From a virus, in IMG/VR virus record IMGVR_UViG_3300024308_000060, positions 1 to 24,130 of that record: DNA of 24,130 nt; one strand, 5' to 3'. Position 1 is the stretch's first letter, and each line of letters begins with the position of its first letter. Under the pieces are notes generated by a model, which was not told the DNA's origin, searched no databases, and was given only the letters and a program-made list of their open reading frames with translations. Made by a program: the position numbers and the translations under genes. Shown here in pieces: positions 7,586 through 10,735 of this stretch.

Positions 7586-7723
7586 TCATACTCCCGCGAA
7601 CTTGGCCCGGGCTTCGAGCCAGGTGCGCGCCTCGATCGTCTCGATGACCTCGCACTCGTCATGCTCGACTTCATCAATGAACAGGCGACCGGACTTCTCC
7701 CGCATCAGGTAGAAGGTCTTCAT
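7586..7723 (-). CDS. 45-aa acidic phage protein, first gene after the late-region terminators
   Basis: Reads MKTFYLMREKSGRLFIDEVE, then an acidic segment (H-D-E-C-E-V-I-E-T-I-E) and ends A-R-T-W-L-E-A-R-A-K-F-A-G-V. A GAGGT site lies 6 bases before ATG 7723. Longer in-frame starts upstream run through the terminator hairpin and are unlikely. It is the first ORF downstream of the putative late control region, so it should be among the first late products. The family is not recognised. Confidence 0.6.
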   Translation of the reverse strand: MKTFYLMREKSGRLFIDEVEHDECEVIETIEARTWLEARAKFAGV

Positions 7724-7739
7724 TGCACACCTCGGAAAT

Positions 7740-7774
7740 AAAAAGCCGCCCGGCGCATTGCTGCGAGGGGCGGC
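7740..7774 (-). terminator. Intrinsic terminator before the first late gene
   Basis: On the minus strand a 7-bp GC stem (arms 7768-7774 and 7745-7751) with an inner 3-bp GCG/CGC pairing closes on a small loop. Five T residues follow (7744-7740). It lies 17 bases before the 45-aa ORF start. The 11-base string AAAAAGCCGCC at its tail recurs at 1901-1911, before the capsid gene. Confidence 0.72.
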
Positions 7775-7932
7775 GAAATGCAGCGGACTGGAGGAGACAA
7801 GTAGTGGCGGCCGGGATACCCCAACCCTGCGCGCCGCGTCGCGCTTGACCACACAGCTGACGCTTGGCCGGCCTCGGACCCCTCAGGCATGCATGCGAGA
7901 GCAGGCACCAGCACCAGGCGGCAGCTATGTGG

Positions 7933-7952
7933 TGACTCGATAACGAGAGTCA
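7933..7952. repeat. Short inverted repeat TGACTC-N8-GAGTCA
   Basis: A perfect 6-bp inverted repeat with an 8-base spacer, lying between the two terminators of the late control region. It could be a protein-binding site or a small RNA hairpin. No second copy was seen and it may be chance. Confidence 0.3.
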
Positions 7953-7994
7953 GGCGGCCAGCCCCAGGGCTATCTGCACAAGTGGGCGGCAAAC

Positions 7995-8019
7995 AAAAAA
8001 GCCCGCTGGGTGGCGGGCT
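7995..8019 (-). terminator. Strong intrinsic terminator
   Basis: Minus strand: AGCCCGC stem (8019-8013), 6-base loop, GCGGGCT (8006-8000), then a run of T residues (8000-7995). It is the best intrinsic terminator in the window. It lies about 130 bases downstream of the promoter candidate at 8150-8178 and about 190 bases after the response-regulator stop. It could end both the early operon and a short leader RNA. Confidence 0.85.
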
Positions 8020-8149
8020 CGTTCAGGAAGATACGGCACATATTTCAGGGCGAGCGCCGGCTTTACTGCTGGCTGGACTGCTCGACTGCCTCGGGTGACG
8101 TTGGCGCCGAAGCGCGCATTACGTGGATCGAGGGATATGTGAAGGCTCT

Positions 8150-8178
8150 AGTTTACGCCGTCTTTTTCAGACGCGCAA
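8150..8178 (-). promoter_or_regulatory. Candidate late (pR'-like) promoter
   Basis: On the minus strand, TTGCGC (8178-8173; 4 of 6 to consensus) and TAAACT (8155-8150; 4 of 6) are separated by exactly 17 bases. The spacer overlaps an inverted repeat CGTCT-N5-AGACG (8159-8173). Transcription would begin near 8143 and meet the terminator at 8019. Placement right after the Q-like/receiver genes is what a Q-dependent late promoter would show. The match to consensus is moderate. Confidence 0.4.
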
Positions 8179-8205
8179 CAATCTCATGAGTTGCAGCGCG
8201 ACTAC

Positions 8206-8586
8206 TCAGCAAAAACCGTGCTTATTCATCGCGGTCATGAGCTCGGCCTTGAACGCGGAGAAGTCCACCGCTTTCTGAATGAACTCGATAGCTCCCAACT
8301 CCCGCGCACGTTTCCGATCAGACTGCAACCCGGAGCCGGACAGCATGATCGTGGGGATGGCAATCTGATGGGAAGTGCGCAGCTTCTCAAGCAAATCAAA
8401 TCCATTTACCTTCGGCATTTTTATGTCGAGCAGGAGAAGGTCAATCGGCGTTTCTTGCAGGGCAATATAGGCCTCCTCGCCATCCCGCGCAACGCGGAGC
8501 GTGTGCGGCACGCTGCAGCTTTCGAGGGCAATGGTAGTGAGCATGACATCAACCATGGCATCGTCGACCAGGAGTATTTTGATCAT
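8206..8586 (-). CDS. Single-domain response regulator (CheY/Rcp1-like receiver)
   Basis: A 126-residue stand-alone phosphoacceptor domain with no output domain. All receiver signature residues are present: acidic pair Asp8-Asp9 ('ILLVDD'), phosphorylation site Asp54 ('LLLLDIKMPKVNG'), Ser83 ('MLSGSG') and Lys105 ('FIQK'). It is therefore expected to accept phosphate and signal by protein-protein contact. It lies between the Q-like antiterminator gene (stop 8630) and the putative late promoter. No histidine kinase is near, so any phosphodonor would be a host kinase. No good ribosome-binding site precedes ATG 8586. A divergent relative is encoded on the other strand at 9452-9886. Receivers are rare in phage genomes; a host-derived cargo gene is the simplest reading. 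Confidence 0.9.
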   Translation of the reverse strand: MIKILLVDDAMVDVMLTTIALESCSVPHTLRVARDGEEAYIALQETPIDLLLLDIKMPKVNGFDLLEKLRTSHQIAIPTIMLSGSGLQSDRKRARELGAIEFIQKAVDFSAFKAELMTAMNKHGFC

Positions 8587-8629
8587 CCAGCATGGTAGCA
8601 GATGCGGGTCATACCCCTCGCCACGAACG

Positions 8630-9172
8630 TCACGCTGCCCGCCTCATCTTTGCCGCCGCCCGCGCGCTATGCGCCTGGAACACACCCTCCAGTTCGCTGA
8701 TCATGTCGAGCACCTTCTCGCGCTCGATCGCGCCGCCCAGGATCGGCTCGCGGCCGGAGCCGTTGCAGTGCGCGCACGCACGGCTTTCGACAACCTTCGT
8801 CCCGTGGCAGTACGAGCACTCGCCGCCCAGCCAGTGGGCCAGGCTGACGCGGGCGATCTTGGCGTACATGGCATACGCCGCCTTGATGTCCCATTCGGCC
8901 TTGATGCTCATCCACTTGCGGTCGAAACCCTTGTGCGCCACCGCGCTGGTCCATACGCGCAGCAGCACGGCCAGCTCGCGGGCGGCGCTCTCGGCCGGCT
9001 GGCGCGGCACCCCGGCGATGTGCGCACGCAACAGCATGGACCCGAACAGCTCACCCGATCCGCCCGACAAGTCGGCCAGCGCCGCGGCAACGAGCGGCTC
9101 CGTCTGGTGGTGCTGATCGTCGTCCTGCAGGTTGGAAGTGGTCAGTGCGTTGAGGTAGCGCTCGGCGAACAT
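8630..9172 (-). CDS. Zinc-finger protein, lambda-Q-like late antiterminator candidate
   Basis: A 180-residue, mostly helical protein with a zinc-binding module 'C-S-Y-C-H-G-T-K' (Cys119, Cys122) and 'C-A-H-C-N-G-S-G' (Cys133, Cys136). This two-CxxCxG arrangement occurs in DnaJ zinc fingers and in phage Q-type antitermination proteins. The preceding 'FDRKWMSIKAEWDIKAAYAMYAKIARVSLAHW' segment and the gene position (last early gene before the packaging genes, followed by promoter and terminators) favour Q. Start chosen at ATG 9172 because it has GGAG with good spacing and because GC-rich third codon positions begin there. An in-frame ATG at 9358 with AAGGAG close upstream would add 62 residues of poorer coding character. 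Q would bind near the late promoter and let RNA polymerase read through the terminators. Family assignment is moderate. Confidence 0.65.
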   Translation of the reverse strand: MFAERYLNALTTSNLQDDDQHHQTEPLVAAALADLSGGSGELFGSMLLRAHIAGVPRQPAESAARELAVLLRVWTSAVAHKGFDRKWMSIKAEWDIKAAYAMYAKIARVSLAHWLGGECSYCHGTKVVESRACAHCNGSGREPILGGAIEREKVLDMISELEGVFQAHSARAAAKMRRAA

Positions 9173-9435
9173 AATTTTCTCCGTGTTAATGCCGAACACA
9201 TTACCAGCGGAAATGCCAAACCGTCGAGCCGCCCGAGATTTTCCAAATGACAACGCCGCTGCACCGTCCGCTCGACTCTTGGCGACAGCAATTCCCATCA
9301 TTCTGCCGACCGTTGATAAATCATAGAGCCTGAATCTACGGGCGCGCTTCGATACCATGTGCTCCTTTTTTGGCGTCGTTGCTTGAACAGCACGCCTACA
9401 GTTCAGCTCAATTGCACTTTTCTATGAATCCGGAA

Positions 9436-9444
9436 TGATATGAT
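9436..9444 (+). promoter_or_regulatory. Extended -10 promoter candidate for the rightward receiver gene
   Basis: TGATATGAT matches the extended -10 form TGnTATAAT with one mismatch. A TTGCAC at 9412-9417 lies 18 bases before an alternative -10 reading (TGATAT). Initiation about 7 bases after the -10 would fall at 9451-9452, on the ATG of the receiver gene, suggesting a leaderless or nearly leaderless mRNA. The surrounding 9173-9451 stretch is AT-richer than its flanks and shows no other clear feature. Confidence 0.4.
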
Positions 9445-9451
9445 TCCCGCT

Positions 9452-9886
9452 ATGAGAATGAAGATATTGCTCGTCGAAGACTCTGACATGGATGCCGAGC
9501 TCGCAATTCATGCATTACGGCGGGGAGGATTCGTGGGGGAGATTGTCCGCGCAGTTGATGGGGGTGTTGCGTTATGGCATTTGGCTGTCTGCCAAGACTT
9601 TAACCTTGTGTTGCTCGACCTGAAGCTGAGGGTCGTAGGTGGATTTGAGTTCTTGACGATGTTGCACGACAATCCGAAGCTTGCCGGCATCCCTGTAATA
9701 ATCCTGAGCGGGACGCTCGATCCTCTTGACCGTCAACGCGCTCGTGAACTCGGCGCAGCGGATTTCGTGCAAAAATATCCTGACTTGTCGCTTTTATCTC
9801 GTGCCCTCGCAGACGCTATAGGTCTGTTGACGAATACTCCAGACAGTGACGAGAACCCGAAAAGCGCGCGATCCAGATCGCTCTAA
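9452..9886 (+). CDS. Second single-domain response regulator (receiver), opposite strand
   Basis: A 144-residue receiver domain with Glu9-Asp10 ('ILLVEDSD'), phosphorylation site Asp56 ('LVLLDLKL'), Ser86 ('IILSG') and Lys108 ('FVQK') all retained. The usual 'MPxxxG' after the phospho-Asp is replaced by 'L-R-V-V-G-G', lacking the proline. A ~20-residue polar tail (SDENPKSARSRSL) follows the domain. It resembles the 8206-8586 receiver in order of motifs (including 'RARELGA') but is clearly divergent. It reads against all neighbouring phage genes, in AT-richer DNA and with its own promoter candidate, which is the profile of a phage cargo ('moron') gene. Starts at 9440 (with GGAA upstream) and 9458 are also possible. 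Confidence 0.88.
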   Translation: MRMKILLVEDSDMDAELAIHALRRGGFVGEIVRAVDGGVALWHLAVCQDFNLVLLDLKLRVVGGFEFLTMLHDNPKLAGIPVIILSGTLDPLDRQRARELGAADFVQKYPDLSLLSRALADAIGLLTNTPDSDENPKSARSRSL

Positions 9887-9887
9887 G

Positions 9888-10133
9888 ATGCCCAAATTCA
9901 AGTTAACCTACACTATTCTCGATAGGTTGCCGCCGAAGGAGATGATTGTAAGCTTCGGCTCGAACGCCGCGACGCTTCAGACCGCAGCTCGAGCGATTCT
10001 CACACATGAGTTTCCGCACCTATCCTTCCCGAATGTTGACCAGGACGCGGATACAGTTAAGCGAATCTTGGAGAGATACGCCGTTCGCAATGTTCGTATC
10101 TCGCTTTTGGGTGCAAATCCAGACTCCCTTTGA
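9888..10133 (+). CDS. Unknown 81-aa protein paired with the receiver gene
   Basis: Begins one base after the stop of the receiver gene (TAA-G-ATG), so the two are probably co-transcribed and coupled. The sequence MPKFKLTYTILDRLPPKEMI... looks like an alpha/beta fold: strand, then 'TLQTAARAILTHEFPHLSF' helix, then 'DTVKRILERYAVRNVRISLLG'. An in-frame ATG at 9846 inside the receiver gene would add 14 basic residues and is less likely. I do not recognise the family. Low GC like its partner. A receiver-associated partner protein is a fair guess only from the pairing. Confidence 0.65.
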   Translation: MPKFKLTYTILDRLPPKEMIVSFGSNAATLQTAARAILTHEFPHLSFPNVDQDADTVKRILERYAVRNVRISLLGANPDSL

Positions 10134-10193
10134 GGCAATCGACCGGACGGCCTGAAGCCACGTCGGACACTGCTATCGTAAGCCAGCGAATGG

Positions 10194-10538
10194 TCACAGG
10201 AGCGCAATGACCGCTCCGTACCCTGCTCGCGCATTGTCGACTTCTAGTTGAGGCGCTTGATTTCTCCTCCTAAACCGGATCTCCAATTCGCGCACGAGCT
10301 GCTCTACAGACACTTCGGTAGCGTTCGCCAGACGGGATTCTCCCAAGCGGCCATGCAGCCAGTCCTGATAGGAAGATAGATCGCTGAATTGGGCTACATG
10401 CGCAAGCAGGTCTTGGCCGCTGATCGTGCCCCTCACATAGGCGCGCAGCATGGCCTCATCTGATTCGGAAACAACTATCCCCTCCTCTTCCAGGCTGTTG
10501 ATCGTCTGCGCGACCCGCTTTCCTCGTAAGCTCTGCAT
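10194..10538 (-). CDS. Orphan VbhA-type (Fic) antitoxin-like protein
   Basis: A 114-residue protein. Its first ~50 residues read 'RVAQTINSLEEEG' then 'SESDEAMLRAYVRGTISGQDLL'. This matches the VbhA antitoxin plan: an inhibitory helix with (S/T)xxxE(G/N), here Ser15-x-x-x-Glu19-Gly20, followed by a short helical domain with 'L-x-x-Y/V-x-x-G-x-I'. In VbhA/VbhT the Glu occupies the Fic active site and blocks AMPylation. The remaining ~60 residues (charged, 'QLVRELEIRFRRRNQ') are not recognised. No Fic toxin gene lies beside it, so it is an orphan antitoxin, an anti-Fic factor acting on host toxins, or a relic. Start 10538 has AGAGGTGG upstream and a promoter candidate; an in-frame start at 10643 lacks a ribosome-binding site. 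The gene is AT-richer than the phage core. Confidence 0.72.
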   Translation of the reverse strand: MQSLRGKRVAQTINSLEEEGIVVSESDEAMLRAYVRGTISGQDLLAHVAQFSDLSSYQDWLHGRLGESRLANATEVSVEQLVRELEIRFRRRNQAPQLEVDNARAGYGAVIALL

Positions 10539-10607
10539 TTTGCCACCTCTGCGTCCAATCGTCGGTGCCGAGTGGCTGCCGATGACAATTGGATAGATTT
10601 CCACTCG

Positions 10608-10636
10608 ATAATAGTTCTCACTGGAAATCTCGTACA
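10608..10636 (-). promoter_or_regulatory. Promoter candidate for the VbhA-like gene
   Basis: On the minus strand, TATTAT (10613-10608; 5 of 6) lies 17 bases after TGTACG (10636-10631; a weak 3 of 6 -35). Transcription would start near 10600 and give a ~60-base leader before ATG 10538. A separate promoter fits an independently expressed cargo gene, but the -35 is poor. The rest of the 10539-10735 gap shows nothing else clear. Confidence 0.35.
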
Positions 10637-10735
10637 GGGACATTCGTACTAGGCGCTGCCTGGAAACAACGTCTATGGCAAAGATTCACTCCTTCGCAGT
10701 GGTCGATGGGTATCGCTAAGAGTTCGTCCGACCTT

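Follow-up and report, generated by a model that had tools for sequence, protein, structure and literature searches.

A Q-like gene between two receiver genes

The window analysed here, 24,130 bp long, is a whole IMG/VR record and represents a fragment of a soil phage whose relatives are found in Duganella- and Janthinobacterium-type bacteria, and it is best explained as part of a temperate phage whose kin are prophages of Duganella, Janthinobacterium and similar Oxalobacteraceae-type hosts. It carries two genes for stand-alone receivers, R1 (8206-8586, minus strand; 126 AA) and R2 (9452-9886, plus strand; 144 AA from the ATG at 9452), on either side of a Q-like gene (8630-9172, minus strand), from which R2 diverges. 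The two proteins match the receiver profile PF00072 with 71 and 53 bits, respectively (curated cut-off 30.2 bits), over profile positions 1-108 of 111, and each has a complete active site, formed by D8, D9, D54, S83 and K105 in R1 and by E9, D10, D56, S86 and K108 in R2; residues, strands and coordinates thus agree with what an earlier note on this DNA had reported. No further Pfam domain, and hence no output domain, was detected in either protein, and the note's remark that no kinase lies nearby is borne out by the lack of a HATPase domain anywhere in the record. Searches for Rfam families and tRNA genes found none. By phmmer, R1 and R2 fall among phytochrome-type and CheY-like single receivers, and they share with the CheY/Rcp1-type proteins (PF00072; PDB 6xvu, 5ic5, 1k68 RcpA and 1i3c Rcp1) a whole-length receiver, the acidic pocket and the Asp, Ser and Lys residues. 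Unlike these, they are phage-borne and have no partner kinase in the record, and R2 and its closest relative carry the residues LRVV after the phospho-Asp region, where other relatives have Pro.

The gene between the receivers encodes a zinc-finger protein of 180 AA, a putative late antiterminator. Its start was moved from 9358 to 9172, since homology across the family begins at the ATG at 9172, behind GGAGAAAATT; the start at 9358 was rejected. The family comprises about 100 phage and prophage loci in which CxxC/CxxC is invariant, and its genes occur in 68 of 394 host-family genomes. With the Q late antiterminators of PHROG_127 the protein shares a zinc-finger region and the position of its gene ahead of a late promoter, a terminator and the late operon, a layout that supports the Q label by position. 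The profile match itself, in contrast, is weak (16 bits, zinc finger only), Pfam, PDB and fold searches gave no confirming match, and the structure model, of low confidence (mean pLDDT 72), had no significant fold match. The label is therefore putative, resting on position and the weak zinc-finger match. In one relative, L017, the Q gene (8079-8618, plus strand) has a TAG at codon 4.

Downstream of Q and R1 lies a putative late promoter (8150-8178, minus strand), in which TTGCGC and TAAACT are separated by 17 nt and of which TTG...GTAAACT is conserved in 18 aligned relatives. Its -10 region and leader form a conserved element of about 80 bp (8079-8163, minus strand) which nhmmer recovered at about 45 related loci, on the strand of Q and downstream of it; R1 sits between Q and the putative late promoter, as the note had placed it. 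The element is probably the site of Q action. It was also observed that the leader following the promoter (8079-8163, minus strand) is very conserved and belongs to no Rfam family; it is possibly an RNA or a Q-loading element. After the promoter comes a tR'-like intrinsic terminator candidate, a hairpin with a T-run (7999-8020, minus strand), which has a counterpart at the equivalent position in the related locus L003; it should be noted that in our scan terminators were no commoner than in shuffled sequence. As read from the DNA, the layout of this region is that of a Q-controlled late promoter.

The receivers differ from their neighbours in base composition, with a GC content of 0.54 for R1 and 0.53 for R2 as compared to 0.68 for Q, and GC3 is likewise low in both relative to Q and terminase. 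The GC-rich Q gene is flanked by two low-GC stretches, namely R1 and the region 9150-10650 (0.50-0.57). An 81-AA ORF (9888-10133, plus strand) begins 1 nt past the R2 stop and is possibly co-translated with R2. It matches no Pfam or PHROG family, and as a known partner of R2 it was discarded, no convincing relatives having been found in viral contigs, plasmids or the 394 genomes (best match 22%). Further along the same low-GC island is another piece of cargo, an ORF with a VbhA-like antitoxin domain (10194-10535, minus strand; PF18495, 32 bits), beside which no Fic toxin was seen among the listed ORFs.

Relatives, constraint and putative promoters of the receivers

The best non-phage match of R1, at 74% identity, is a chromosomal orphan receiver (L167) of genome G144, which comes from the same bacterial family as SJZ107, a prophage host; 394 genomes of this family were searched, and 28 of them contain R1 matches below 1e-18, one of which sits in the SJZ107 prophage. 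The G144 gene differs from R1 in having housekeeping neighbours instead of a prophage around it, but the two share the same extended -10 and start region. Over the presumed kinase-docking surface they are identical at 22 of 24 positions, as against 71 of 102 elsewhere; we take this surface, from general knowledge of kinase-receiver complexes, to consist of alpha-1 and the beta5-alpha5 loop. At the level of sequence, R1 is shown to descend from a host-type orphan receiver. A second phage copy occupies the same slot in L003 with 72% identity, and there an in-frame TAA cuts off the last 12 residues.

R2 has a different closest relative. Its best match among the 394 genomes is a receiver (L207, 57% identity) in a prophage of genome G212, where it lies divergently upstream of a Q-family gene (match at G212:C45) and hence in the same slot as R2. 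The two share LRVV as well as the -10 and start layout; unlike R2, the L207 receiver has a tandem partner, a degenerate pseudo-receiver without the phospho-acceptor Asp, and the 81-AA ORF was not found beside it. The shared divergent slot makes a local role of R2 possible. A pattern search of viral contigs for common orthologues of R2 found none.

Both receivers are under purifying constraint. The pN/pS ratio is 0.27 for R1 against the L003 copy and 0.41 for R2 against the L207 receiver, compared with 0.23 for Q against that of L003, all of which are upper bounds since synonymous sites are near saturation. Together with the profile scores and the active sites, these values rule out that R1 and R2 are chance ORFs.

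Each receiver gene starts directly behind an extended -10-like motif, and neither has a Shine-Dalgarno sequence. For R1 the motif is TGCTACCAT (8592-8600, minus strand), 5 nt before the ATG, and TGCTAC(C/T)AT is common to the R1, L003 and G144 copies at this distance, all three without Shine-Dalgarno. For R2 it is TGATATGAT (9436-9444, plus strand), 7 nt before the ATG; the L207 homologue carries TGATATCAT at the equivalent position, and the two genes have TGATAT(G/C)AT before the ATG in common. The motif class was found in 30 of 38 genes of the clade and in 29 of 330 background genes (p about 1e-20), while a Shine-Dalgarno sequence precedes 3 of the 38 and 159 of the 330; the counts include related genes, and the p-value thus overstates independence. 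No good -35 was found for the putative promoters of R1 and R2, the conserved feature being an extended -10 at the right distance. Chromosomal orphan receivers of the clade (L138-L166) likewise have a -10-like motif 5-7 nt before the ATG, mostly without Shine-Dalgarno, and are probably leaderless genes. We consider it strongly suggested that R1 and R2 each possess an extended -10 promoter of their own, still putative, and a leaderless start, in which case their expression in the lysogen need not depend on the Q operon. As R1 lies only 43 nt downstream of Q on the same strand, it could also be read from the Q operon. Neither receiver gene has a terminator of its own, the site at 7999-8020 being the sole terminator-like site within 7700-10300.

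Variable slots beside Q and recurrent phage receivers

Among the related phages, between about 190 and 1490 bp separate the Q stop from the late element, and the genes in this interval differ from one phage to the next. R1 was present in this slot only in the window and L003, i.e. 2 of about 45 mapped loci, and L003, with its premature stop, is the only one of 21 close Q relatives to have it; an R2 orthologue is absent from all 21. The pairing of Q with a receiver, for which the earlier note had suggested a search of related prophages, is nevertheless not confined to the window: an R2-like gene occupies the same slot in L207. Among the host-family genomes, a receiver of the R1 or R2 type was seen in the same prophage as a Q-family gene only in G212 and G072. 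The slot divergently upstream of Q contains, in other phages, a Septu pair (L007, 5868-7863, minus strand; PtuA 618 bits, PtuB 343 bits), an exo/endonuclease-phosphatase (L006), a PEP-CTERM protein (L017) or a SEC-C protein (L019), and further cargo at the two slots includes a nucleotidyltransferase (L008) and a biotinyl-lipoyl domain protein (L011). Judged by sequence, both places are hypervariable slots whose interchangeable cargo changes, or is missing, from phage to phage; R1 and R2 are each, as cargo is, an extra gene where relatives have nothing or something else. A comparable arrangement is known from lambdoid and Stx phages, in which accessory genes adjoin Q and the late promoter and terminator of the pR' region (PMC6266700). 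In Stx phages pR' precedes the cargo and drives its transcription, whereas R1 is located upstream of the late promoter and apparently has a promoter of its own.

Receivers recur in this phage group. Of 79 other Q-group records, 9 contain a PF00072 match above cut-off, as against none of 50 random IMG/VR contigs of at least 20 kb (Fisher test, p=0.007 for the first 71 records and about 0.01, calculated by hand, for all 79), an enrichment that involves small numbers, some near-duplicate records (L108/L110) and control contigs from mixed hosts; L017 adds a weak, degenerate receiver to the nine. In the tree, phage receivers fall into at least five lineages (R1; the R1-like gene of SJZ107; R2; L106/L108/L110/L119; L113/L120), and the pseudo-receivers of L017, L207 and L078 form a long-branched group that may represent one more. 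The sequences show that receivers have entered this phage group several times. In three phages the receiver is 15-19 kb from Q in contig coordinates, some receivers at this distance being on the lysogeny side. Pseudo-receivers without a phospho-acceptor Asp were observed near Q in L207 (8338-8781, minus strand), L025 (1489-1845, plus strand) and L078 (6963-7433, minus strand), and the degenerate genes near Q possibly constitute a phage-specific family. Beyond this group, receivers do occur in known phage gene sets, contrary to what the note had stated: PHROGs holds several receiver-containing families, although they are rare. INPHARED yielded 44 distant receiver matches, many of them probably host sequence or contamination, and no relative of Q among its phage records. 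In the library searched, the literature on phage-encoded receivers or prophage rewiring of two-component signalling yielded no description of either.

Host signalling or late switch

That R1 and R2 are cargo we regard as highly probable, and the host-derived cargo which the earlier note had offered as its simpler reading fits best with the 74% identity of R1 to a chromosomal orphan receiver and with their shared promoter and start region. As the content of the slots changes from phage to phage, some being empty, the receivers most likely adjust host signalling rather than the phage switch, and we think it likely, with somewhat less assurance, that they are lysogenic-conversion ('moron') genes plugging into host phosphorelays. 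In the mechanism we propose, R1, between Q and the late promoter, and R2, divergently upstream of Q, would be expressed in the lysogen from their own putative promoters, apart from the Q operon, and we infer that the phage receivers would take phosphate from host histidine kinases. R1, which keeps nearly all docking residues of its chromosomal counterpart, would probably duplicate, compete with or re-route the phosphorelay of that counterpart and so shift host behaviour to the benefit of the prophage, and R2 would probably do likewise for another relay. To our knowledge, no function has been assigned by experiment to the chromosomal homologues.

The note had favoured a more intimate connection with the phage, a receiver through which the signal of a host kinase would adjust the switch to late genes; in this reading phosphorylated R1, R2 or both would bind Q, RNA polymerase or the region of Q and the late promoter. 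The position of R1 between Q and the late promoter speaks for this, as do the closest relative of R2, which diverges from a Q-family gene in another prophage, and the proximity of pseudo-receivers to Q in L017, L207 and L078. However, of the 21 close relatives that share this Q, 20 lack R1 and all lack R2, the slots carry unrelated cargo elsewhere, the R1 copy of L003 is truncated, receivers in three phages are far from Q, and a DNA-binding domain is lacking in stand-alone receivers. Given such variable slots, and given that nearly every relative with this Q lacks R1 and R2, we rejected this role as the main reading and hold it to be distinctly unlikely overall, unlikely for R1 and weak for R2. 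A version restricted to R2, namely that LRVV and the divergent position in two prophages, once with a pseudo-receiver, mark a phage-specific receiver lineage through which signals from a host kinase would influence the decision taken by Q and time late expression, appears to us very improbable.

Two further possibilities treat the receivers as cargo of another kind. They could serve defence or superinfection exclusion, either by dampening a pathway (motility, pili or capsule) through which the host exposes phage receptors or by forming a small defence module together with the 81-AA ORF, and the full Septu system in the R2 slot of L007 and the location of an ORF of no known family 1 nt after R2 lend this some appeal. 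We nevertheless consider it unlikely, as no PADLOC family fits R1 or R2, the 18-bit matches covering part of the receiver only, and the ORF is not conserved beside the R2-like gene of L207. Alternatively, the receivers might be neutral passengers, captured host genes without benefit to the phage and heading for loss, as the premature stop in L003 and the loss of the phospho-acceptor in the pseudo-receivers of L017, L207 and L078 might indicate; the low pN/pS ratios, the complete active sites and the recurrence of receivers in this phage group argue against such decay and make it quite improbable.

Conversion of host signalling by R1 and R2 thus remains our preferred reading. If the receivers work in the lysogen, prophages would rewire two-component signalling of their hosts with a protein of as little as 126 residues, and R1, with its near-identical docking residues, would allow one to test directly whether a phage receiver competes with its counterpart on the chromosome. 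More broadly, the hypervariable slots beside Q are a place in which to seek new cargo and defence genes in phages of Oxalobacteraceae-type hosts.
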